DNA of 64,000 nt from a bacterium (GTDB lineage: Bacteria > Armatimonadota > Zipacnadia > Zipacnadales > UBA11051). Positions 6,229-50,140 of the stretch are shown here, piece by piece. The notes below the pieces were generated by a model, which was given only the letters and a program-made list of their open reading frames with translations, made no database searches and had not been told where the DNA came from. The translations under genes were made by a program, and so were the position numbers. The stretch covers positions 1 to 64,000 of the forward strand of contig JAJFUB010000085.1 in the NCBI GenBank assembly GCA_021372615.1, written 5' to 3'. Every line of letters begins with the position of its first letter. Position 1 is the stretch's first letter.

Positions 6229-9200
6229 GACTGACCCCCTATGTCGTGCTTCTGCTGACCACGGCTACCTCTCCCCTATTCGCCCAGCAGGAACTCCTCA
6301 AGAACACCTCTTTCGAGGAAGTCACCGACAAGGGCCTGCCGGCCGGCTGGTCGCAGTACGGCGGCGGCGTGCCGGAGAGTGTGCTCAAGGTTGAGGCGAC
6401 GGCGCGGACCGGGAAGTCCGCGGTCCATCTCACTGACACCGGCCCCAATGTGCGCGATAACCGCTACGCCATCGGCGTGCAGCAGGATGTGCCCGTCACG
6501 CCCGGGCGGTTCTACCTGGCGTCGGTGTGGGCCAAGGCCATCGCGCGCAACAACGACCAGGCCGTCGTGCTGCAGATCACCTTCCTGGGCGGCGCCGAGG
6601 CCAGGAATGTCTCGAACTATGTCGCCCCCCCGATCGGCGGCGACTGGAAGCGCTACAGTCTCGGCGGCGTCGCCCCCGATGATGCCAAGACCGCGCGTGT
6701 CTACGTCTACACGATGCACTTCTGGACCAGCGATACGCTGATTGACGACGCTTCGCTCAAGGAGGCGGCGGCCACGCCGTCGGTCGCGACGGCGATCTTC
6801 CAGTTTGGCCAGGAGCCGTTGGCCGGGCCGCGCAAGCTGAAGCTGCAGACGCCATTGGCTCGGGGCGGAGAACCCGCCGCGATCATCGCCTGCCCCTCCG
6901 ACCCGCAGTGGCGGCAAGTGGCGATGGATCTGCAGACCGCGATCCAGCGCAAGACCGGCGCGACGCTGCCGATCCACCTGGTCAGCGTGACGACCGGGGG
7001 CGGGCTGGAAGCCCGCACTACGGGCGCAGGGGAAGCCCGCGCTAAGGGCGGGGGGGAGGCGCAGGACAACCGGGCCAGGCTCAGCGAGTTGCTGAAGACC
7101 GACCAGACCATCCTGGCCCTCGGCAATCTGAACAACAACTTCGCCATCGAGCGGCTGTACTTCAACGGCTATACCCGCGCGGATTCGCTGTGGCCCGGCG
7201 CCGGGGCGTTCGCGCTGCGGACCGTGCACCAGCCGTTCAACTTCGGCGACATCAATGTCCTGACCATCGAGGCCAGCGACCTGGAGGGCGCGAAGGCCGG
7301 GGCGCTGGAACTGGCCAAACGGCTGCCCGATAGCCGCGACTGCGCCCTCGACCAGCCCCTCCTCTTCGCCTCCAGCGCCAAACCGATGAACGACGAGCAG
7401 CGCCAGAAGCTGCTCTCCGGCAAGCCCTCGGCCAGCCTGCTCATGGAGTTCCACCGCGCCTGCGCCGCCTATCGCGATAGCGGCGACGAAGGCTGGGCGT
7501 TGCAAGCCAAGCGGCTCATGGGGCTGTGCCGCGAGCGGCTCGTGACGGACCCGCAGTACAAGCTCGACTGGCCCGAGGAGACCAGCTCCAACGACATCGG
7601 GAAGATGTGGGACGTGATCGAGGAGGCGCCGGTGTGGAGTGACACCGAGCGCGCCGAAGCCGAGAACGTCATCTTCGCCACGATGCTCGGGATGCGGCGC
7701 AATGTCTACAACTGGGGCACCTTCGCGAGCAATGACACCATCGTCTGGAACCACCAGACCTTCCCGCTGCTGGGCGTCTACTGGATGGCCCGCTGGTTCG
7801 AGCGCTGGTACCCGGACCGGGACGTCGCCGGCGACTACCTGGCGCAGGTGCACGGAGCCTTCCGTGGGCAGCTCAAGAGCTGGAAGCCCCAGTGCGATGC
7901 CGACGGCTACCTGACGATCACCCCGCGGCATACCATCGAGTACACCCTCTCGCGTAACGACTACCGCTTCTTTGAGAGCGGCAATGTGCGTCAGTTCGCC
8001 GAGTACCTCACCGGCGTGTGCGACAATCAGGGCAACATTCCCGGCTTCGGCGACTCCGGCTATGGGAAGGGGCCGGGCTATGAGCTGAACGGTCTGCCGC
8101 TGGCGTTCTGGTACACCCGGGACCCGCGCTACCTGTGGCGTCTCCAGCAGATCTACGGCGGCAAGTGGCAGAACCCCTACCATACCGACATCACGCCGCA
8201 GCCGTGGCCCGAGATCGTCGGTGTCAACGTCTACCGCATGCCCACGGAGTACTACAAGTGGGCCACGACCTCGTCCTCGTATGGCGAGGGCACGGAGAAG
8301 ACCGAGGTCACCTACGAGCAGTCCTTCGACAAGATCAGCTTCCGCGAGGACATCAGCCGGGATGGGCAGTTCCTGCTGCTGGACGGCTTTGCCCGCGGCA
8401 AGCACCTGCAGTACGACGGCAACTCCATCATCCGCTACCACGCCGATGGCGAGGACTGGCTGATTGACGGCGACTACCTGGTCCGCAACACCACCGACCA
8501 CAACATGATCAGCATCGTGCGCGACGGGCGGTGCGCCGTGCTCGAGCCGGCCTTCACCAGCCTCGACGCCCACGCCGACCTCCCCGGCGTAGGCTTCACC
8601 CGCACGACAGTGCAGGGCTACAACGGCGCGGACTGGACCCGCAACATCCTGTGGCTCAAGGGCGAGGGCTTCGTCGTCGTGGATGAGCTGACCGCCCGGC
8701 AGCCCGGCAGCTACACCTTCGAGAACGTCTTCAAGATGCTGGACCTGGGCAAGCTGGAGTTCGACGGGCGCTGCGCGAAGGTCAGCCGCCCGACGGCCGG
8801 CGGCATGGGCAGCCGCGACCTGTCGTACACGCAGGCCGAGGGTGTGGGCAAGGTGGTGCGCTTCGGCAACCAGGGCTCGCGGCTGGAGTTTCCTGTGACG
8901 CTCCCGGCGGGTGAGTACGCCATCACGCTCTTCGGTCAGGGCACCGGCGGCGGCACCGACAGCTTCTGGCTGCAGGTGGACGAGGCCGAACCGGTGGCCT
9001 GCCACGTGCCCATCGAGAAGCTGGGGCCCTCCAGCGCCGCCTGGACCAAGGATGTGCCGACACCCAATGTGAAGATCGGCCAGAGTGGGACGCACATCGT
9101 CCGGATCACGCTGCGCGAGGGGCCGGGGACGATGCTGCAGAAGGTCACCATCGCCGACAAGGCGGGCAAGGAAGTCGCAACGATTGACGCGCTTAAGCCT

Positions 9201-11062: not shown

Positions 11063-13588
11063 ATGAGCGATCAGCCGGTACAGGGCGTCGTCAGCACCAT
11101 CGCGGCCAAGTGCAAGCGATGCTACAACTGCGTGCGCAGTTGCCCCGCCAAGGCCATTCGCGTGCAGAGCGGCCAGGCGTGGGTCATGGCCGAACGCTGC
11201 ATCGGGTGCGGCAACTGCCTCCGGGTCTGCGCCCAGAACGCCAAGCAGGTGCAGTCGGCGCTGGAGGAAGTGCAGGGCCTGCTGAGCCTGACTGCGCGTG
11301 GGCCGGGACATCCTGGACCGGCCGATGACGTTCCCGTCTCTCTGGCCGGTCCAGGATGTCCCGGCCCACGCGACGGACGGCGGCCTGTGGTCGCCATCCT
11401 GGCCCCCTCCTACCCCGGGGCTTTCGAGCATCTGGACGCCGGGCATGTCGTGGCCGGGGTGCGAGCGCTGGGCTTTGACAAGGTGATGGAGGTCGGCTTC
11501 GGGGCGGAGATGGTGGCCGCGGCCTATGTGCGGCTGCTCAAGTCGCGGCCGTGGGGCACGGTCATCAGCACCGCCTGCCCGGCTCTGGTCGGCTACATTG
11601 AGAAGTACATGCCGGAACTGGTGCCGATGCTGGCGCCGATCGTGTCGCCGATGGTGGCGCTGGGGCGGGCCGTCAAGGAGCAGCTGGCCCCCGGCGCCGC
11701 CGTCGTGTTCATCGGGCCCTGCATCGCCAAGAAGGTCGAGCGTCTCTCTCCCGCCGTCGCGGGCGCCGTAGATGCCGTGCTCAGCTTCACAGGGCTGCAG
11801 GAGCTCTGGCAGCAGCGCGGCCTCGATCCGGCGTCGCTGCCGCCCGCAACGGCCGATGATCCCCTCCCCTACATGGGCGCCGTCTTTCCCGTATCCGGGG
11901 GGCTGCTGAAGGCGGCGGCCATCGAGGCCGACGTGCTCGACGACTCGATCCTGGTCGTGGAGGGCCCCGACCGCTGCCTGGCCGCCCTGCGCGAACTGGG
12001 CGAGGGCAATGTGGCGCCGCGCCTGGTGGATGCGCTCTTTTGTGAGGGGTGCATCGCGGGCCCGGCGTATGCCGACAGCCTCTCGCTGCTGGCGCGCAAG
12101 GAGCGCGTGACGGCCCATGTGCGGACCTTGCAGCGACAGGCGCGCCAGCTCACGCGGTCGCTCAGGCAGGTGGCGGGAGTGAACGTAGGCCGTAGCTTTA
12201 CTCCCCAGCCCCTGCAGGCGTCACAGCCCACCGAGACCGAGATCCGTGACATCCTTGCCAAGACCAGCAAGCTCACCCCGGCGGACGAACTGAACTGCGG
12301 CGCGTGCGGTTACCCCACGTGCCGCGACAAGGCCATCGCCGTCTACCAGGGCCTGGCCGAGCCGGAGATGTGCCTGCCGTACCTGATTGACCAGTTGCAG
12401 GTGAACCTCGACCAGATCACCCGCGGCCGCGAGGAGTTGGCGCGGACCCGCGAGTTGGCCTGGCGGGCGCAGCAACTGGCCTCCATGGGCGAGTTGGCGG
12501 CCGACATCGGCCAGCAGATCAGCAACCCGCTGGCGCGGCTGGTGCTGTTCGCGCAGTTGCTGCGCGACAACATGCCCGCCGATGATGTGCGGCGGGAGGA
12601 CGTGGCCAACATCGTGGCCGAGGCGCTGCACTGCCGCGAGGTGCTGTCCAGTCTGCAGGGCTTCGCCCGGCAGCGCGAGCCGCAGTGGGAGGAGACGCAA
12701 GTGTCGGCCATCGTGGCGCGGGCGCTGGGCGAGCTGCAGACGAAGCTGCAGGCGGCCAGCGTCACCGTCGAGCAGCACCTGCCCGCCAACCTGCCGCCCC
12801 TCGTCGCCGACCCCGCGCAACTGGCCCAGGTGCTGGTGAACGTCCTGACCAACAGCCTGGAGGCCATGGACGGGGGCGGGACCATCACCATCACCGGGCG
12901 CCTGTCCGAGGATCGCCGCATGGTCGAGGTGGATGTCCACGACCCGGGACGCGGCATTCCCCCACACCTGCTCGAACGCGTCTTCCAGCCCTTCGTCACC
13001 ACCAAGCAGGACCTACGCGGGGCGGGGCTGGGACTGCCGGTGGCGCACGGGATCATGCAAGCCCATGGTGGCGAGCTGCTCATAGACAGCGCGCCGGGCG
13101 AGGGCACGACGGTGACGCTACGGCTGCGCGCCGAGGCGGCCCCGCGGGTGGGGGCCGGGGCGCTCAAGGTCATGATCGTGGATGACGACCCCGACTTCCT
13201 CGAGCAGCACCGCCTGATGCTCGAGAGCGCGGGCTTCGCCGTGGTCGCCGCCGAGCGCAGCGATGAGGCGCTGGAAGTCGCCAACCGCGAGATCCCGGAT
13301 GCGTTTGTGCTGGACATGATGATGGAACGGACCGACTCGGGCGCCCGCCTGGCCCGGGCCCTGCGCCGCGACCCCCGCTTCCGCAAGTCCCCGATCATCA
13401 TGCTCACCTCCGTTGTGGACGACATGGGCTTCGACTTCCACCGCAACCCGGAGACCGTGCTGGAGTGGATGAAGGCCGACGCCTGGTTCGACAAGCCCGC
13501 CCCCATGGTCGAGATCTGCGACAAGATCCGTTCCCTGCTACCAGACCCCGGCGACCCGGGGGAGGCATCGTCCCCCACGACGGAGTGA
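11063..13588 (+). CDS. Iron-only-hydrogenase-like sensor fused to histidine-kinase core and receiver
   Basis: An 841-residue modular protein. Residues 1-60 hold two 4Fe-4S motifs (Cys17/20/23/27 and Cys46/49/52/56). Residues about 105-360 are an [FeFe]-hydrogenase large-subunit domain retaining the four H-cluster cysteines: Cys172 in STACPA, Cys220 in GPCIAKK, and Cys327 and Cys330 in FCEGC. A further 4Fe-4S module has Cys412/415/420/437. Residues about 455-690 are a kinase core with intact ATP-binding boxes (NVLTNSLEAM, DPGRGIP, GAGLGL). Residues 715-835 are a receiver with acidic pocket, Asp in FVLDMM, Thr/Ser and Lys (FDKP). The H-box reads GELAADIGQQISNPL, so the usual phosphorylated His is Gln484. 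The family (HydS-like sensory hydrogenases) is thought to sense H2 or redox state. No maturation genes (hydE/F/G) or catalytic hydrogenase lie in this window. The ribosome-binding site is GGAG. It carries an in-frame 78-bp palindrome at 11295-11372. Confidence 0.85.
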   Translation: MSDQPVQGVVSTIAAKCKRCYNCVRSCPAKAIRVQSGQAWVMAERCIGCGNCLRVCAQNAKQVQSALEEVQGLLSLTARGPGHPGPADDVPVSLAGPGCPGPRDGRRPVVAILAPSYPGAFEHLDAGHVVAGVRALGFDKVMEVGFGAEMVAAAYVRLLKSRPWGTVISTACPALVGYIEKYMPELVPMLAPIVSPMVALGRAVKEQLAPGAAVVFIGPCIAKKVERLSPAVAGAVDAVLSFTGLQELWQQRGLDPASLPPATADDPLPYMGAVFPVSGGLLKAAAIEADVLDDSILVVEGPDRCLAALRELGEGNVAPRLVDALFCEGCIAGPAYADSLSLLARKERVTAHVRTLQRQARQLTRSLRQVAGVNVGRSFTPQPLQASQPTETEIRDILAKTSKLTPADELNCGACGYPTCRDKAIAVYQGLAEPEMCLPYLIDQLQVNLDQITRGREELARTRELAWRAQQLASMGELAADIGQQISNPLARLVLFAQLLRDNMPADDVRREDVANIVAEALHCREVLSSLQGFARQREPQWEETQVSAIVARALGELQTKLQAASVTVEQHLPANLPPLVADPAQLAQVLVNVLTNSLEAMDGGGTITITGRLSEDRRMVEVDVHDPGRGIPPHLLERVFQPFVTTKQDLRGAGLGLPVAHGIMQAHGGELLIDSAPGEGTTVTLRLRAEAAPRVGAGALKVMIVDDDPDFLEQHRLMLESAGFAVVAAERSDEALEVANREIPDAFVLDMMMERTDSGARLARALRRDPRFRKSPIIMLTSVVDDMGFDFHRNPETVLEWMKADAWFDKPAPMVEICDKIRSLLPDPGDPGEASSPTTE
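11295..11372 (+). repeat. In-frame 78-bp perfect palindromic element inside the sensor gene
   Basis: Bases 11295-11323 and 11344-11372 are exact reverse complements (29-bp arms, core GGGCCGGGACATCCTGGACC) around a 20-base loop. The total of 78 bases is exactly 26 codons, contains no stop in the coding frame, and encodes a Gly/Pro-rich stretch (ARGPGHPGPADDVPVSLAG) at about residues 78-103. This is the linker between the 4Fe-4S domain and the hydrogenase domain. I see no second copy in the window. Confidence 0.9.
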
Positions 13589-16934: not shown

Positions 16935-17042
16935 TACACGGCCCAGCGAGTCTCGCATATGGTATATCTTCGCGCAACGAACTGACCTCACGCTCTGGTC
17001 AAGAGTGTGCGGGCGGCGACTCACAGTGGGGCGGGCAGTGCT

Positions 17043-17112
17043 GCACAGTAGCGCGGGCGGCCTCGCCCGCGCACCGCGGACCGGGCAGGCGAGGCCGCCT
17101 GCCCTACTGTGC
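17043..17112 (+). repeat. Imperfect long inverted repeat
   Basis: Arms of 25 bases at 17043-17067 and 17088-17112 match at 23 positions (outer part GCACAGTAG, inner part GGCGGCCTCGCC). It lies just beyond the 3' end of the minus-strand gene at 17128 and may serve as its terminator. It belongs to the same class of GC-rich palindromes as the others in the window. Confidence 0.7.
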
Positions 17113-17127
17113 CGCAAGGATGCCAGG

Positions 17128-27452: not shown

Positions 27453-30400
27453 CTACTTCCCGCGGCTGATGATGATCTGGTCCAGCCCCAGTCCGCCGGT
27501 GACATTGGCCAGGCGCAGCACGTGCTTGCCGGCCGCGAGATGGAAGCGGGCGGGCTGGTCGCTGCTCGCCCCGCCGGGCTGGGCCGGGATGCGGAAGAAC
27601 TGCCAGTTGTCGCGGTCGGTGCAGTAGCCGCCCGTGTTGGGCAGTACGAGTTCCACGCCGCCGGCCGTCGGCGGCTGCCCGTCGATCGTCAGCGCCCGCT
27701 TCGACGGATCGGAGGCAGTGCAGTAGCGCAGCACGATGGTGTAGTCGCCGGCCTCGGGGAGATCGAAGCTCCACTCCAGCCAGTGCCCCATGCTGGCCTC
27801 CCACTTCGTGACCATCCGTCCGATGTTGGCGACGCGATCCACGATCTCCACGGCGCCCGCGCCCTGGCCGCTGAAGTTCTCGGCCTCGACGATGACCGCC
27901 TGGCGCGGGTCGAGGGCCAGCACCCAGTCCGGCGGCATCGAGACCACGCGCTTGGCCGAGGACGCGGTGCCGAGCTTGTCGGACACGGTCAGCGTCACCG
28001 TGAACGTCCCCTCTTTGGCGTAGGTGTGCTTCGCGACCTTCCCCTGGCCCCTCTGACCGTCGCCGAAGTCCCACGCATAGCCGGTGATGTCGTTGTCCAC
28101 GTCGGTGCTGGCCGAGGCGTCGAGCGTGACCTCACGGCTGCCGCCGGGGCCGAGGTTGCCCTGGATGTTCAGGCCCGGCAGCGGCTCGCCCTGGGCGAAG
28201 AGCTGGCTGGGCCAGTAGCTCAGGTACGGCAGCGTGCCCTTGATCTGCAGCTCGAAGGCGCCGGGACAGGAGGTGAGGCTCAGCTCGCACGGCCCCTTGG
28301 CCCCGGCAGCCGGGTCGGCCACCAGAGATACCGGCTTGTCGCCGAAGCTGACCGGGAAGACCTTGCCACCGGGAGCGCGCAGCGCGGCCTTGTAGCTGCC
28401 CTTGCCCAGGCCCCGCAGCACAAGCGTCGTCTTGCCGTTGCCAGGGAGCTGCACCATGTACGAGGGGAGGCGCAGGCCGGGGCCGAAGCGCGTGGGGCGG
28501 CTCACGTCCACGACCTGACTATCCAGATCGCAGTCGAAGTCCCACGGCACCTGCCCGGCGAGGTCCAGCTGCAGCAGGTACAGACCCAGGCCGCTGCCCG
28601 GTGGCACTTCCAGGACAACGGCCGGGCGCTGGTCGAGCTTGGCCTCGGCAACAGTCTTGCCATCCCTGGTGAGGGTCGCCGTGCCGCCCAGCGCGCCCTG
28701 CCCGCGGGGCCTGAGGGTCACCATGAAGCCGCGGTCTACGGACTGGCGGAGCACAATCTGCACGCTCTGGCCGGGGGAGAAGTTGTAGTTGTCCATGTCG
28801 GCCTGGGCGAACTGGTACAAGATGGCCGGGGTGCGGCGGATCTGCTGGGTAAAGCTCTTGCCGAAGCCGCTGACGCTGCGCACTTCTTGCACCGTCCCGG
28901 TCTTCACGACGTCACCGAGCACCTTGTCCGGGCGACACATGTAGCCATGCATCATGCCCTCGGTGATGAGTTCGGACAGGCCGCCGCCGGCACTGCTGAC
29001 CGGGCAGCTCGTGTAGCGCATGGCCTTCCGCTCCGGCACCCACGTGGTGCGGATCAGGTAGTGCGCCGCGCCGGCGATCATCCGGTCCACATCCGGGTCG
29101 CGGGCGACCTGGTTGAAGTCGCGCAGGCCGGACATCAGGACGCCCATCATGAAGGCGGCCTCGCCCCGGTGGCGCGGCAGGCAGTAGCAGTGACCCGGCA
29201 TCATCTCGCGAATCCAGCCGCCGCCGGGGTCCTCACGTTCGCGGGTCCGGTCCATGATGATGCGCGCGGCGTTGAGGTAGTACGGATCGCTCGTGGCGCG
29301 GTACATGCCCATGGTCAGGATGAGGTGCCAGCCGTTGGTGCGGTTGTTGCCGAAGTCGTAGTTGTTCGTGTAGTAGCCGTCGTACGCGTCCGTGAGCAGC
29401 GCCGCGGATTCCAGGCCGCGCACGTCGCCGGACAGGAAGTGGTCGGCCAGGTAGCCCTCGCACCAGCTATGCGACACGGAGCAGCCGCCACCGGGGCTGC
29501 CCTGATCGTTGATCTTGTGGTCGTAGTAGCTGCCGGTGTGGCCGATGCAGTGGGCGTACACCTTGCCGATCTGGTGGGGGTCACCGGCGTGGATCATGTC
29601 CACATCGTGGTTGTGCCGCGCGGCCTGCTCGGCCAGCCGGTAGTAGCGCTCATCGCCGCTGCGCACGAACTGCAGGTAGAAGGCATACTGGCTGTCATAC
29701 TCGATGTTGCCCCAGTTGCGCCCGCGCTCGCCCCACCAGTCGCCGAAGTCGAGCATCCCGTACTCACGACCCCGCTCGCGGCTCTGCAGGTACCCCGTCA
29801 CGGCCTTCTCCACATTGCGCTCGTAAGTCAGGAAGAGGCCGCCGAGTTCGGGGCTGGAGGGCAGGATGTCGCCAAAGGCCTTCGAGTCGCAGTACCAGTT
29901 CTTGCCGGCCTTGAGGAGGGGCGGCTCGTCGAAGGCCACGGCCTCGTTCGCAGCCGGGGCCTCGCCGGGACCGTGGAAGGCGAAGAGCAATTCGTGGTGC
30001 TTACTCATGCCGCACTTGAGCTTGTAGACATCGTCCTTGAGGTAGTAGTAGAGCTTGTCCTCCAGCTCGCCTTCCTTGCTGATCTTGTAGGTGCCGGGGG
30101 CGAACGGCGGCATGAGGCCGATGGACACGCTGTCGGGTCTGAGGGTCAGGGACTTGGGGTAGAGCTGCCAAAGGTAGCGGACGGCGACGGTCAGCCCGGC
30201 CTTGCTGCCGGTGACATCACCCCAGTTGGCGGCGCGCTTGCCGGAGGCGTCGGCGCCCAGGCCCGTGACGCGGAAGTTGTCGTCAAAGCCCTGCCAGAGA
30301 GTCGCGCCCTGCTGGGGAAGCGGTGTGGGAGCGGTCACCGACCGCGACCCGTCCGGGCCGAACTGCCCCTTCGGGTCAGCACCCAGAGCCAGGCCCTGGG

Positions 30401-32495
30401 TCAGCGTCAACGAGTTCAGCTCCGAGAACGCCTTCGTCGTGTTCGTGTTCGTGAAGGTGTGGTGCACGACCACGTCGCTCCTGCCGGCATAGAAGTGCAG
30501 GTCCACCTGATCGCCCAGGGCAGCGTTCTCACCCTTGAGGCTGCCGTCCACGCGGATGATGCTGTGCAGCGGGCCGCGGCGCATGATCCTCAGCGTCGCC
30601 GGCTGGGCCGTCCCGGTCTTGCCACCGGCGGTGAGGAGGCTCTGGCCGCCGTCGGAGATCATCTCGTCATCGCTGAACCGACCGTCGCCGCTGCTGTCGA
30701 GCCACACCTTCCCGAGCAGCGCCGACTTGTCGCGCGGCAGCTCGACCTGCAGCCTGCCCGTGTTCACGGTGAGAGCCGTCTGCCCCTCGGTGATCTGCAG
30801 TGGTCGGGCAATAGGCGTGCGCTTGACCTGCGTGCCGTACTGGAGCGTGAACGACACTGTCTGCTTGGCCTGTAGGTCGGTCTGGAAGTCCAGCAGGACC
30901 CACTTGATGGAGTAGTCGGGCCAGTAGCACAGCACCGTGGCCTGCAGCGGCACTTCGCGACCGGCGGCGTCGAGTAGCTTGAGGTGATCGGCCGACACCA
31001 GCGCGCCCTGTGGGAAGGGCAGCCCCTGCGTGACCGGCCAGGCCTTCAGCTCGAAGGGGTAGTCGTTGGCCATCGTCAGGGGCAGAGCGGTCTGCTTCAC
31101 CGACCCCGGGGGCGGCTGGATGGCGGCCACAAAGGCAGCCTGCTGCCTGACCGTCTCGCCCTCGGGGGTCTGGGCCTCGACGGTGACATCGTACTTCTGG
31201 CCCGGCTTGAGGTCATTGAGCCAGAAGCGGTGGTTGGCGAAGGGCTCGGGGTCCTGGACCGACGTGGGGCCGTCCGGGACGTTCGGCCCCACGCGCACGG
31301 TGCAGACCGTCGGCCACGTCGTGATGAAGGTCACTTCGCCCACCAGGCGCCCGTCGGGGGTCAGGGCCGGGCGGGCTTCCAGGTTCGTCAGCTTGCGCGC
31401 CAGCTTCGTGACGGACGGGGGCTGCGGCAGCAGCAGGACTTCCTCGATGAGCGGCGTCCCCGCCACCGCCTCCAGTGCGATCTCCGTGCCTGCCTTGAGG
31501 TCGAGAGGCTTGTCGGTGAAGAACAGGCACTCGCGGTTGTTCTGCTCGCCCGCGACCGCCATGCCCGCTTCCTTGCCGCCGACGCTCAGCACGATGTTCT
31601 TGCGCCCGCCGGACTGGTAGGTGATGAAGCCCACGTGCAGCTTGCCTGCCCGCGGCGCCTTCACGGTGATGGTGTGCGGAGTGCGGCCCACGCACATGAC
31701 GTGCCGGTTCACATACTCCGTCTGGATGTTGAGCTCATAGCCGCTCAGCGTCCCCTCCCACGGGTGCAGGACGGTGGTCTTGGGGTCCTGCTTGAGGCGT
31801 TCGAGCAGGCGGAAGCCCCAGGTCACCTGCATGTTGCGGCTGGCGGTCAGGTCCTGCGGGCCGATGATCTTGGCGCGGGGGCTGTCGCCGGCCACGGCGA
31901 ACTTCGTCAGGCCGATGCTGTCCATGCCCTTGTACGGGTCGCGCGTCTCGGTCAGCACCTGGAAGGCGCCCACGGCCTCGCCCTCCTGCTGCTGGATGTT
32001 CACATCGGCGCACAGGTACAGGCTCTTGCCCAGCATGGCCGCCCGCAGCGGCTCAGGGGTCTCCTTGCCGTCGGCGGCGAAGGCGCGCAGGCCGGCCGAG
32101 CCCTGGCCGTACACGAGCATGTACTCGCAGCCCATGTCCGACCGCCCGGTGGCCTTGCTGTCATCGCCGTACAGGTAGATGATGAAGCCGCCCTTGTCAC
32201 AGGCGCAGGTGTCGGCGAAGTCCACGCGCCACAGGTAGCGGTTGCCGGCTACATTGCCCACGGACACGGCGACCACGTCAAGCCCGGGCGTGTAGTTGTC
32301 CTTGCCGCAGCCATCGCCTTCGGCCTTCGTCTTGTCGGTCGCCACCAGCGTGAGCTGTTCGGCGAAGTTGGGGTCGGTGGCAAGCTGCTTCTCGATGGCA
32401 TCGGGCACGCCGTCGCCATCGGTGTCGGCGTTCTGGGCGCACAGCGGCACGCACAGGCACAGAGCCAGCAGCAGCACGGGCAAGAGCATTCGCAT
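27453..32495 (-). CDS. Giant secreted PL26-like protein with PKD and C-terminal binding modules
   Basis: A 1680-residue protein with a signal peptide (MRMLLPVLLLALCLCVPLCA) followed by a calcium-binding DTDGDGVPDAIE motif. Beta domains fill about 40-470. A RIFT-barrel region near 480-600 (EVPLQATVLCYWPDYSIKWV) and a helical domain (about 900-1250, with DFGDWWGERGRNWGNIEYDS) match the PL26-type gene at 67-2391. A PKD domain follows near 1510-1585 (ASASTDVDNDITGYAWDFGD), then a CBM6/35-like module (VIVEAENFSGQGAG). ATG 32495 is chosen because GGAGG lies eight bases upstream; a frame extending to 32639 has no leader sense. It probably degrades rhamnogalacturonan-like polymers outside the cell. 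It carries an in-frame repeat at 30325-30349. It is divergent from the heparinase-like gene at 32638. Confidence 0.87.
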   Translation of the reverse strand: MRMLLPVLLLALCLCVPLCAQNADTDGDGVPDAIEKQLATDPNFAEQLTLVATDKTKAEGDGCGKDNYTPGLDVVAVSVGNVAGNRYLWRVDFADTCACDKGGFIIYLYGDDSKATGRSDMGCEYMLVYGQGSAGLRAFAADGKETPEPLRAAMLGKSLYLCADVNIQQQEGEAVGAFQVLTETRDPYKGMDSIGLTKFAVAGDSPRAKIIGPQDLTASRNMQVTWGFRLLERLKQDPKTTVLHPWEGTLSGYELNIQTEYVNRHVMCVGRTPHTITVKAPRAGKLHVGFITYQSGGRKNIVLSVGGKEAGMAVAGEQNNRECLFFTDKPLDLKAGTEIALEAVAGTPLIEEVLLLPQPPSVTKLARKLTNLEARPALTPDGRLVGEVTFITTWPTVCTVRVGPNVPDGPTSVQDPEPFANHRFWLNDLKPGQKYDVTVEAQTPEGETVRQQAAFVAAIQPPPGSVKQTALPLTMANDYPFELKAWPVTQGLPFPQGALVSADHLKLLDAAGREVPLQATVLCYWPDYSIKWVLLDFQTDLQAKQTVSFTLQYGTQVKRTPIARPLQITEGQTALTVNTGRLQVELPRDKSALLGKVWLDSSGDGRFSDDEMISDGGQSLLTAGGKTGTAQPATLRIMRRGPLHSIIRVDGSLKGENAALGDQVDLHFYAGRSDVVVHHTFTNTNTTKAFSELNSLTLTQGLALGADPKGQFGPDGSRSVTAPTPLPQQGATLWQGFDDNFRVTGLGADASGKRAANWGDVTGSKAGLTVAVRYLWQLYPKSLTLRPDSVSIGLMPPFAPGTYKISKEGELEDKLYYYLKDDVYKLKCGMSKHHELLFAFHGPGEAPAANEAVAFDEPPLLKAGKNWYCDSKAFGDILPSSPELGGLFLTYERNVEKAVTGYLQSRERGREYGMLDFGDWWGERGRNWGNIEYDSQYAFYLQFVRSGDERYYRLAEQAARHNHDVDMIHAGDPHQIGKVYAHCIGHTGSYYDHKINDQGSPGGGCSVSHSWCEGYLADHFLSGDVRGLESAALLTDAYDGYYTNNYDFGNNRTNGWHLILTMGMYRATSDPYYLNAARIIMDRTREREDPGGGWIREMMPGHCYCLPRHRGEAAFMMGVLMSGLRDFNQVARDPDVDRMIAGAAHYLIRTTWVPERKAMRYTSCPVSSAGGGLSELITEGMMHGYMCRPDKVLGDVVKTGTVQEVRSVSGFGKSFTQQIRRTPAILYQFAQADMDNYNFSPGQSVQIVLRQSVDRGFMVTLRPRGQGALGGTATLTRDGKTVAEAKLDQRPAVVLEVPPGSGLGLYLLQLDLAGQVPWDFDCDLDSQVVDVSRPTRFGPGLRLPSYMVQLPGNGKTTLVLRGLGKGSYKAALRAPGGKVFPVSFGDKPVSLVADPAAGAKGPCELSLTSCPGAFELQIKGTLPYLSYWPSQLFAQGEPLPGLNIQGNLGPGGSREVTLDASASTDVDNDITGYAWDFGDGQRGQGKVAKHTYAKEGTFTVTLTVSDKLGTASSAKRVVSMPPDWVLALDPRQAVIVEAENFSGQGAGAVEIVDRVANIGRMVTKWEASMGHWLEWSFDLPEAGDYTIVLRYCTASDPSKRALTIDGQPPTAGGVELVLPNTGGYCTDRDNWQFFRIPAQPGGASSDQPARFHLAAGKHVLRLANVTGGLGLDQIIISRGK
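30325..30349 (-). repeat. 25-base repeat inside the giant PL26-like gene, identical to an intergenic hairpin arm
   Basis: These 25 bases are identical to the reverse complement of 10969-10993. On the coding strand they begin GGTCGCGGTCGGTGACCGCT and contribute the peptide GSRSVTAP. The surrounding protein segment (FGPDGSRSVTAPTPLPQQG) is low-complexity and lies between conserved parts of the lyase domain. The frame is intact. Confidence 0.8.
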
Positions 32496-32637
32496 GGGGT
32501 CGACCTCCACAGGTATCGCGTGGGTCTCTTCCTCCGCCGGTCGCCCCGGACCTGCGCGCGTCCCCGCGGCAGGTGCGGCCCCCTCGGCGCGGGAATGCGT
32601 TCTCAACATGCTCAGAACGGACACGGGTACTGACCCC

Positions 32638-35010
32638 ATGGTTGCCTTCCTCCTCGTCGCGTCGGTCGCGATGCTCCTGCTGTGCTGCCAGGTGTCGGCT
32701 CAACCCGCCCTGTGGTTCGCGCAGGAGGACCTCCCGCGCCTGGAGGCCGCCGCGGCCGCCGAGCCCGAGGCGGCTGTCTGGCGCGCGCTGCTGGCGCAGG
32801 CCGAGGGCTACTGCACTCCCGGTTCGGGGCAGTACGCGACGCCCGAGCAGGTCGCCCAGCGGCCCGCCGGCGACAAGCGCGTGCAGATCCTGGGGCACTT
32901 CTTCGGCCGGCGGCTGACGGACTGGATGGAGGCCCTCGGGTTCGCCTACCAGTTGACCGGCGATGAGCGCTTCGCCCGCCACGGGGTGCTGCTCCTGACG
33001 ACGGCGGCGGCGCAGCTGCCCGTGACCGATCCCGACATCGCCAAGGGCTTCGCCGGAGCCCGCGGGGACATCATGCGCGGTCTGGCCGTGGGCTATGACT
33101 GGCTGGGGGAGGCCATGACGCCCGAGCAGAAGGCGGCATGGGCGGAGACGGCGGCGGGCTATGTGCGCAACATCGTCGCCGAGGCCACGGGGGAGAAAGT
33201 CTGGTGGCGGCCGTACCACAACTTCATGGGTGTGGCCATGGGCGCGGCCGGGCTGCTGGCGCTGGAGCTACGCCCCCTCTACCCGCAGGAGGCCCCCGGC
33301 TGGCTGGCGACCTGCACCAACATGGTCGGCCAGTGGCTCGATGAGGGCTGGGACGCGCAGGGCGCGTACTCCGAGGGCACGATGTACGGCCAGTATGGCC
33401 TGAGCAACGCCATCCGCTTCGCCGATGCGCTCAAGCGCAGCGGAGGCCCGGACCTGCTCCAGCGCCCGCATGTAAAGCAGATCCCGGACTTCTACGCCCT
33501 GTCGCTGCTCCCCGGCGAGCGGGTCTTCGAGGCGCGCAATGACGCCAACTACAGCAGCCTCGACGATCCGACCATGATACGCCTCGCGACGGCGCTCGAT
33601 AGCGGCGTCGCCAGTTGGCTGTGGCAGTCCTCCGGCGGCGGGACCTCCCCCTTCCGCCTCATCTGGAGCAACCGCGTCGCCCCGACCGCCCCGTCCACCG
33701 CCGAGCCGCCAGGCAGCCACTTTCCGGGCCGGGGCCTGTGCATCTGGCGCACGGGCTGGGGGCAGGGGGATGTCATGTTGTCGGTCGAGGCCGGGCCGTT
33801 CCACGCCGTCACCCACAACCAGGGCGACAAGGGGAGCTTCACGCTGTACGGCCTGGGCCAGCGGTGGGCGATTGACTCTGGCTATGGCAACAACCGCCAG
33901 CCGGGCGGGCGCGACTCGACCATGGCTCACAACTGTGTGCTGATTGACGGCGAGGGGCAGGCGCCCTCGGGTGCAGGGGCCGGGACGAACGGCCAGATCG
34001 TCGCCTATGAGAACACGGCGACCTGTGGCTATGCCCTCGCCGACGCGACCGAAGCCTACAATCACAACGCCGGCGGGCAGCCCGGCGTGGGTGTGGAACG
34101 CGCCCGCCGCCACGTGTGCTTCGTGCGCCCCTCCGGCGGGGCCGCGGCGTACGGCGTGGTCTGCGATGACATCCGCAAGGACGCCGCCAGCCATGAGTAC
34201 ACGTGGCTGCTGCACCTGCCGGCCGACATGCGCGTCGAGACCCAGCCCGACGGCGCCGTCATCACCCCCGGCAGCGCCTTCGCGCACAGCTACATCGAGA
34301 CGCCGCTGCAGGCCGAGGGGCGCGGGGCGGCAGCCTGGACGTTCGAGGCGCCCGAGGCGGGCGACTACGTGCTCTGGGCGCGAGTCCGCGCGACGGGGGA
34401 GGAACTCGGCAAGTCCGATTCCTTCTTCGTCCAGATGGACGAGGGGCAGCCGACCGACTGGCACATGCCCGGCGGGCAGGAATGGACGTGGGGCAAGGTA
34501 GCCGCCGGAGTGGCGCAGCAGCCCCTGAGCTACCGCCTGACCGCGGGCCGGCACACGCTGCGGTTCCTCACGCGCGAGACCGGCGCGCAGGTCTCCGAGG
34601 CGGCACTGACCACGAACACGCAGGCCGCGCCACCGTTCGCCGCCGGGACGCCGGCGATCCCTCTCCCGGTCGAGACGGCATCAGTCACGCCGCCGATGCG
34701 GCTCACCACTGTCCCTGGCGATCCGAAGGCCCCGCACATGAGACTATGGCTCACGGCGGCGGCGCCCGTGCGCTATGCAGTGGACAGCTACGACGGCCAC
34801 CAGCGCCTCAAGGCGATCGTGTCGTCAGTGCAGCCGGACTTCGCGGCGGTGCTGCTGCCGCTGCCAGCGGGCACGGTGGAGCCGCAGGTGCGCGTTGAGC
34901 GCACGGCCGAGGCGCTGGTGATGCGGCTGCAGTGGCCGGGACGACATGACGAGATCCGCTGGCCGACCGCGGGGGACCGACGGCCCATTGTGACGGTCGG
35001 GATCCCCTGA
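32638..35010 (+). CDS. Secreted heparinase II/III-like polysaccharide lyase
   Basis: A 790-residue protein with a signal peptide (FLLVASVAMLLLCCQVSA). An alpha/alpha-toroid domain (about 25-370) contains WRPYHNFMGVAMGAAG and EGTMYGQYGLSNAIRF. A heparinase II/III beta-sandwich (about 375-560) contains HAVTHNQGDKGSFTLYGLGQ and DSTMAHNCVLIDGEGQAP. The His/Asn/Tyr candidates fit eliminative cleavage of uronic-acid polysaccharides such as alginate or glycosaminoglycan; the specific substrate is unknown. A carbohydrate-binding-like module occupies about 565-660. ATG 32638 is preferred, but an ATG at 32608 is possible. It is followed by the CBM9-containing gene 24 bases downstream, probably on the same transcript. 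Confidence 0.87.
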   Translation: MVAFLLVASVAMLLLCCQVSAQPALWFAQEDLPRLEAAAAAEPEAAVWRALLAQAEGYCTPGSGQYATPEQVAQRPAGDKRVQILGHFFGRRLTDWMEALGFAYQLTGDERFARHGVLLLTTAAAQLPVTDPDIAKGFAGARGDIMRGLAVGYDWLGEAMTPEQKAAWAETAAGYVRNIVAEATGEKVWWRPYHNFMGVAMGAAGLLALELRPLYPQEAPGWLATCTNMVGQWLDEGWDAQGAYSEGTMYGQYGLSNAIRFADALKRSGGPDLLQRPHVKQIPDFYALSLLPGERVFEARNDANYSSLDDPTMIRLATALDSGVASWLWQSSGGGTSPFRLIWSNRVAPTAPSTAEPPGSHFPGRGLCIWRTGWGQGDVMLSVEAGPFHAVTHNQGDKGSFTLYGLGQRWAIDSGYGNNRQPGGRDSTMAHNCVLIDGEGQAPSGAGAGTNGQIVAYENTATCGYALADATEAYNHNAGGQPGVGVERARRHVCFVRPSGGAAAYGVVCDDIRKDAASHEYTWLLHLPADMRVETQPDGAVITPGSAFAHSYIETPLQAEGRGAAAWTFEAPEAGDYVLWARVRATGEELGKSDSFFVQMDEGQPTDWHMPGGQEWTWGKVAAGVAQQPLSYRLTAGRHTLRFLTRETGAQVSEAALTTNTQAAPPFAAGTPAIPLPVETASVTPPMRLTTVPGDPKAPHMRLWLTAAAPVRYAVDSYDGHQRLKAIVSSVQPDFAAVLLPLPAGTVEPQVRVERTAEALVMRLQWPGRHDEIRWPTAGDRRPIVTVGIP

Positions 35011-49875: not shown

Positions 49876-50140
49876 GGTGAGGCGCCCCTCCGGGGCTCAG
49901 CCTCGTGAGGGATCAAGAAGGCCGGCCGTGGACGGGGGCTACCGCCCCCGCCTAGACTGAGTCGGCCCTCCGGGCCTAACGGCAACGTCAGCCGCCTCTG
50001 CGCTGAGTCCACGAGGAACGGCGACGGGTGCGGGGCCGTCAGCGCCGGAGGCGCGGCTCACACCAGGCGGGGGGCGATAGCCCCCGTCACCCGGGCCCCC
50101 CTCATCCCCCTCCCCGTCGAGCCCCGGAGGGGCGCTTCAC
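49876..50140. repeat. Repeat island bounded by 22-bp inverted repeats
   Basis: The spacer between two convergent genes is bounded by GTGAGGCGCCCCTCCGGGGC... (49876-49897) and its near-perfect reverse complement (50119-50140, 21 of 22 positions). Inside, a diverged copy of the 49-bp repeat (about 49928-49975) faces a close copy in inverted orientation (50041-50090). The whole island is therefore one large imperfect palindrome, MITE-like in form. It has no coding capacity. I did not find target-site duplications. Confidence 0.75.

Follow-up and report, generated by a model that had tools for sequence, protein, structure and literature searches.

The window, a 64,000-nucleotide stretch of bacterial DNA, carries at 11063-13588 on the plus strand a gene for an 841-aa Fer4 / Fe_hyd_lg_C / FeS / HisKA / HATPase / response-regulator protein, and within this gene lies a palindromic element at 11295-11372. 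Along the protein, Pfam places a 4Fe-4S domain (residues 14-60), an insert (residues ~76-104), Fe_hyd_lg_C (108-334), FeS, HisKA, HATPase and the response regulator in this order. Thus, the insert falls between a ferredoxin-like and a hydrogenase-like domain, as stated in the original prediction made from the DNA alone, which was also right about the geometry: the two 29-nt arms (11295-11323 and 11344-11372) are exactly inverted, 100% complementary and 20 nt apart, and the 78 bases are 26 stop-free codons in frame within the ORF, encoding a peptide of about 26 residues, ARGPGHPGPADDVPVSLAGPGCPGPR. In an AlphaFold model of the protein (mean pLDDT 57, from a shallow alignment of only 9 sequences), residues 79-103 have no secondary structure and low confidence, and lie between a helix and the first strand of the hydrogenase domain.

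Five inverted repeats whose arms reach 18 nt or more were found in the window, among which this palindrome is the sole perfect one. Its arm 23-mer occurs twice in the window, against 0.01 occurrences expected from shuffles of the window, and the 78-nt strand folded as DNA reaches -49.1 kcal/mol (z = -13.3). Elsewhere in the window, at 49877-50140, there is an imperfect inverted repeat with 47-nt arms that are 74% complementary and 170 nt apart.

Orthologues were obtained by a search of 60 relatives, the nearest of which belong to other genera. In the nearest, G001, which belongs to another genus of the same family, the DNA matching residues 7-75 of the window protein runs directly into that matching residues 105-831, and an alignment with 11 orthologues left 29 residues that are present solely in the window protein. 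Two observations had been named in advance as support for an insertion, namely absence of the peptide from homologues and further copies of the arm in the host genome. Both were made: about 29 residues are missing at the exact insert site in 11/11 orthologues, and the arm recurs across the genome.

The repeated entity is a 29-bp hairpin unit

When the copies were lined up, the repeated entity turned out to be a 29-bp unit and not the palindrome. The unit opens with the head CGCGTG. Its hairpin has a stem of 6 bp, then the mismatches G.A and A.G, next a C-G and an N-N' pair, and closes in a TCC triloop. In the window, the head of unit 1 occupies 11295-11300 and its hairpin 11301-11323, both on the plus strand; the hairpin has the stem GGCCGG / CCGGCC, the tandem G.A mismatch, inner pairs C-G and A-T, and the triloop. 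After the 20-nt spacer (11324-11343), an identical hairpin of unit 2 follows in inverted orientation on the minus strand (11344-11366) and ends in its head (11367-11372, CACGCG on the plus strand). The whole element is therefore a head-out inverted pair, a homodimer, of the 29-bp unit. The head was delimited with a position table of 67 units and the fold, and the hairpin with covariation across 24 distinct units and the fold. The head is unpaired in the single-unit fold and forms the sharp 5' edge of family conservation, each of its positions being kept in 88-99% of the 67 units; upstream of it, the position table showed no clear target motif. Two single units, L100 (C109:71843) and L133 (C40:49899), end directly in CACGCG, a tail that matches the head and so lengthens the stem; they are possibly collapsed pairs.

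Across 24 distinct units, 97.4% of cells are paired and 47 changes are two-sided; since units were collected with at least 5/6 stem pairs, part of the stem pairing is due to this choice. Sliding the partner by -3 to +3 reduces the two-sided changes to 2-9. The inner N-N' pair, which the collecting pattern left free, still covaries as A-T, G-C or T-A. Covariation of the stem together with a fixed head and loop indicates that the folded strand is what is read. The units are palindromic, dispersed and short, as ordinary double-stranded binding sites for chromosome organisation or a regulator might also be if they had arisen in place by mutation. However, the stem sequence is free to vary as long as it pairs, unlike a double-stranded site read by a protein, and neither the residues missing in homologues nor the 15 exact 24-mers in unrelated genes fit such an origin, which we regard as very improbable.

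The folded strand might instead act in the transcript, which would form a very stable hairpin and could serve as a functional RNA or a recoding element (bypass, pausing or an RNase III site). Relative to genes the units have either orientation, and this points to a role in DNA rather than RNA; they are also found in unrelated genes and between genes, and no Rfam match was obtained in the window. An RNA element of this kind is in our judgement extremely improbable.

A family restricted to one genome

The genome comprises 6.41 Mb with 69% GC. The 24-mer core occurs in it 20 times with up to 3 mismatches, 15 of these being exact, and its reversed control not at all; these counts and the 23-mer expectation in the window rule out chance, which the original prediction had already considered very unlikely as the source of the repeat. 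Hits to a degenerate pattern at two mismatches (144/146) hardly exceeded those of the reversed control (134/125) and were thus mostly chance, and we therefore adopted a covariance model. With E-values that are rough, it gave 70 units at E up to 1 and 62 at E up to 0.1, in 59 loci. The window contains a second, single unit of the family at 31267-31296 on the minus strand, which reads in frame as VRVGPNVPDGP within the minus-strand ORF 27453-32699.

Outside this genome the family was practically absent. The covariance model found one weak hit in total among the 60 relatives, and a specific pattern found two single matches among 84,980 species genomes, from which the window's own record was possibly left out. 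The matches in Geodermatophilus and Actinomadura were single, had poorly pairing stems and were rejected as family members. IMG/VR viral contigs gave no match to the unit.

Two arrangements within the genome deserve description. At L094 (C143:56952 and 57337), two direct units lie 385 bp apart around an AT-rich stretch, each within a larger imperfect palindrome with matching ends. At L135 (C110:20735), three degenerate tandem units are found at the C-terminus of an ORF, GASGTSEPGASGASAPTPGASGTSAPTGA.

Pairs of units with outward heads

Eleven loci are pairs of units within 150 bp, 63-78 bp in length, and in 11/11 the units are inverted with the heads outward. Homodimers of the GGCCGG/ACATCCT unit were seen only twice, as the window copy, with its spacer of 20 nt, and as a copy in an FGGY kinase gene (C83:10986), with a spacer of 18 nt. 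The other nine are heterodimers, in most of which 1-4 nt separate the units. Because both homodimers consist of one unit type, they are perfect palindromes, and most other dimers are imperfect because their two units differ. The perfection of the window palindrome thus reflects recent copying of one unit type and not active upkeep of the palindrome. Recent arrival and active maintenance had both been offered as explanations; the former holds in the sense of recent copying, while the latter is contradicted by the imperfect dimers, and the view of the palindrome as one maintained unit gives way to that of a homodimer of a 29-bp REP-like unit. No target-site duplication was evident by eye in the flanks of the listed pairs.

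The homodimers also bear on whether the palindrome is real. Fold-back chimeras from assembly or amplification are a classic source of perfect inverted repeats, and the analysis covered the assembled sequence. On the other hand, the same homodimer with a different spacer stands in frame in the FGGY kinase gene, the unit alone or in unequal pairs is found at about 57 other loci, and a fold-back event would neither reproduce a family nor preserve a reading frame. We regard an artefact as extremely improbable.

Intragenic copies preserve the reading frame

Reading frames around the loci were assessed with codon usage trained on the host genome, and genes were called from codon usage and homology rather than from annotation. 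At 39/59 loci the best frame is the same on both sides and the element is free of stops. Five of these were discounted, leaving 34, or 33 if a weak case on C19 is dropped. The copies on C162, C84, C74 and C41 were not accepted as intragenic, with the unit lying before the likely start, at the edge of an ORF or in a doubtful ORF, and the match in AlaRS (C17:13063) was rejected as an insert, since it lies inside an ungapped conserved alignment and is native sequence. Thus, 33 or 34 of the 59 loci, more than half, are intragenic, and none of the remaining loci has coding sequence on both sides in clearly shifted frames. A strict version of the frame test scored 64% of random positions and 32/59 elements, which suggests that the family is distributed nearly at random with respect to genes.

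The units are found in both orientations relative to the gene. Single units favour the frames RVGADVPDAP and GASGTSAPTR (19/27, against 1/3 expected, p = 9e-5). This bias to mild peptides is a mark of selection on the translated product, as expected if arginine-rich readings are purged by selection.

The same genome harbours a GTAG-headed REP family of 126 units, which are mostly extragenic: 2/20 loci in one sample and 3/13 in another are in frame, against 32/59 in the CGCGTG family, and the difference is significant when the samples are pooled (p = 0.0003), although one locus may have entered the pool twice. An inverted pair of GTAG-headed REPs (GTAGCGCGGGCGGCCTCGCCCGC and its partner) is present in the window at 17039-17116. 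The GTAG REPs are an internal control, two hairpin families being present in one cell, one of which avoids genes and the other does not. Standing on its own in an unrelated GC-rich genome, where it decorates about 34 proteins and comes with a control, the CGCGTG family opens directly the question of why genes tolerate one hairpin family and not another. It also becomes possible to ask whether target DNA is replaced on insertion, and how frequently new peptide loops in conserved enzymes originate from mobile DNA.

Homologues lack the peptides, and net gains in length are mostly below the unit length

We used composite queries against G001, G011 and G016, followed by alignments, the homologues being from other genera. 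At 20 loci, the window included, homologues align on both sides and are without most or all of the peptide. Six loci lie inside one intact Pfam hit: FGGY_N, Radical_SAM (MiaB-like), Ni_insertion (LarC-like), Sulfatase, DHQS (3-dehydroquinate synthase II) and GH123_N, the N-domain of GH123.

The net gain in length was usually below the length of the element, and this counts against simple insertion. Read by hand from alignments at 13 single-unit sites, the median gain is about 5 aa per 10-aa unit, and 12/13 of the sites gain less than 9.5 aa (sign test, p = 0.0017); at five loci with pairs, which encode 18-27 aa, the gain is 9-20 aa. It follows that target DNA was replaced at integration or that the loops were trimmed afterwards. 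In the former case the unit would take the place of ~15-25 bp of its target, perhaps as filler DNA acquired by copying or capture when a break was repaired, and loops would be swapped rather than lengthened. In accordance with this, the loop of a NapH-like protein gains only 3-4 aa, and a GH123 protein has the unit where its homologues keep a conserved [ED]EP[IL]D, which is now gone. However, the window copy gained 29 aa for 26 encoded, with no loss, and loops of homologues from other genera may have differed before or been trimmed later under selection. We therefore consider loop replacement possible, though on balance doubtful.

Comparison with known palindromic repeats

Palindromes that code for protein were first reported from Rickettsia, and accounts of REPs usually place them outside genes. 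The CGCGTG family is most similar in build to the REPs and REPINs (PMC3116915, PMC8266576): it shares with them a short hairpin after a fixed unpaired head, a stem broken by mismatches, covarying stems, inverted pairs whose heads face outward and whose spacer varies, a multitude of copies within a single genome, and single units that may be remnants of pairs. All 11 pairs have the REPIN form of two inverted REPs with heads out and a short variable spacer, and the 6-bp stem with its interrupted inner part falls within the 5-13 bp stem and 2-20 nt loop of GTAG REPs. It differs in that the head is CGCGTG (the last four being GTGG if the closing G is counted) and not GTAG, in that over half of the loci lie inside genes, and in the association with a RAYT/Y1 gene: none of the seven Y1_Tnp genes of the genome is flanked by the unit, and the idea that one of them carries it was rejected. 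In E. coli, cleavage by TnpA-REP/RAYT requires the head and the mismatch, and a different enzyme cuts GTGG and similar head variants as well (PMC8266576). Of the top 16-mers of P. fluorescens SBW25, with 1,067 occurrences in all, only 14 overlap genes (PMC3116915, PMC8266576).

Intragenic GTAG and CGTC REPs were reported outside Rickettsia, in several species, by Di Nocera and colleagues in 2013, most REPs still being described as intergenic (PMC3733652). Intragenic GTAG repeats were most numerous in Opitutus terrae, where more than half form dimers or groups encoding 20-30 residues (PMC3733652); these are likewise in-frame inserts, with another tag and unit than the present family. The CGTC-tagged REPs, which include Rickettsia RPE-4 and RPE-6, resemble it in having no dedicated transposase known, head-to-head dimers and in-frame intragenic copies (PMC3733652). 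Their stem is 8-9 bp long and begins with A-T pairs, their loop has 4-5 nt and they carry a 3-nt tail, whereas the unit here has a 6-bp GC stem, a tandem G.A mismatch, two inner pairs, a triloop and the CGCGTG head. The Rickettsia palindromic elements (RPE-1 and others, PMC2229807), which the original prediction cited as precedent, share in-frame insertion into many unrelated protein genes, where it is tolerated, and absence from homologues. As a precedent they serve for this in-frame behaviour and not for sequence, size or host: they are 105-146 bp long and Rickettsia-specific (PMC2229807), and the present unit measures 29 bp and its pairs 63-78 bp, in a genome that is unrelated and rich in GC (69%). 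The family thus has neither of the two tags, GTAG and CGTC, and departs from the CGTC repeats in stem and loop and from the RPEs in size and host; it is best read as analogous to the Rickettsia palindromic elements rather than as one of them.

Proposed mechanism and a candidate mobiliser

We consider it highly probable that the window palindrome belongs to a family of non-autonomous mobile DNA, REP/REPIN-like and confined to this genome, whose folded unit is moved in trans and whose in-frame copies in loops persist. The units, single or in head-out inverted pairs whose stem sequence drifts while pairing stays, would be recognised as folded single-stranded DNA by a trans-acting enzyme that copies or moves them, for which a RAYT-type Y1/HUH transposase is the most likely choice. 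New copies would enter genes about as readily as other places, those breaking a frame or a fold would be purged by selection, and those in frame in linkers and surface loops would persist as extra peptides, presumably without selective effect. Against this reading count the seven Y1 genes, among which no mobiliser was found, and the short net gains in length. A narrower version, in which a REP-like element with its own CGCGTG head and a mobiliser not found here integrates by replacing a short target, and so swaps loops while not being barred from genes, appears rather unlikely to us.

Within the REP/REPIN-like reading, one of the Y1 genes stands out. Dimers of a third repeat, whose head CGTGTG is similar to that of the unit, stand on either side of the Y1 transposase at C160:19552-19869; in the coordinates of L147 they lie at 7364-7421 and 8105-8161, around the minus-strand ORF 7463-8020. 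The gene and these dimers are a possible REP-transposase unit, and this transposase is the best candidate for the mobiliser of the CGCGTG family.
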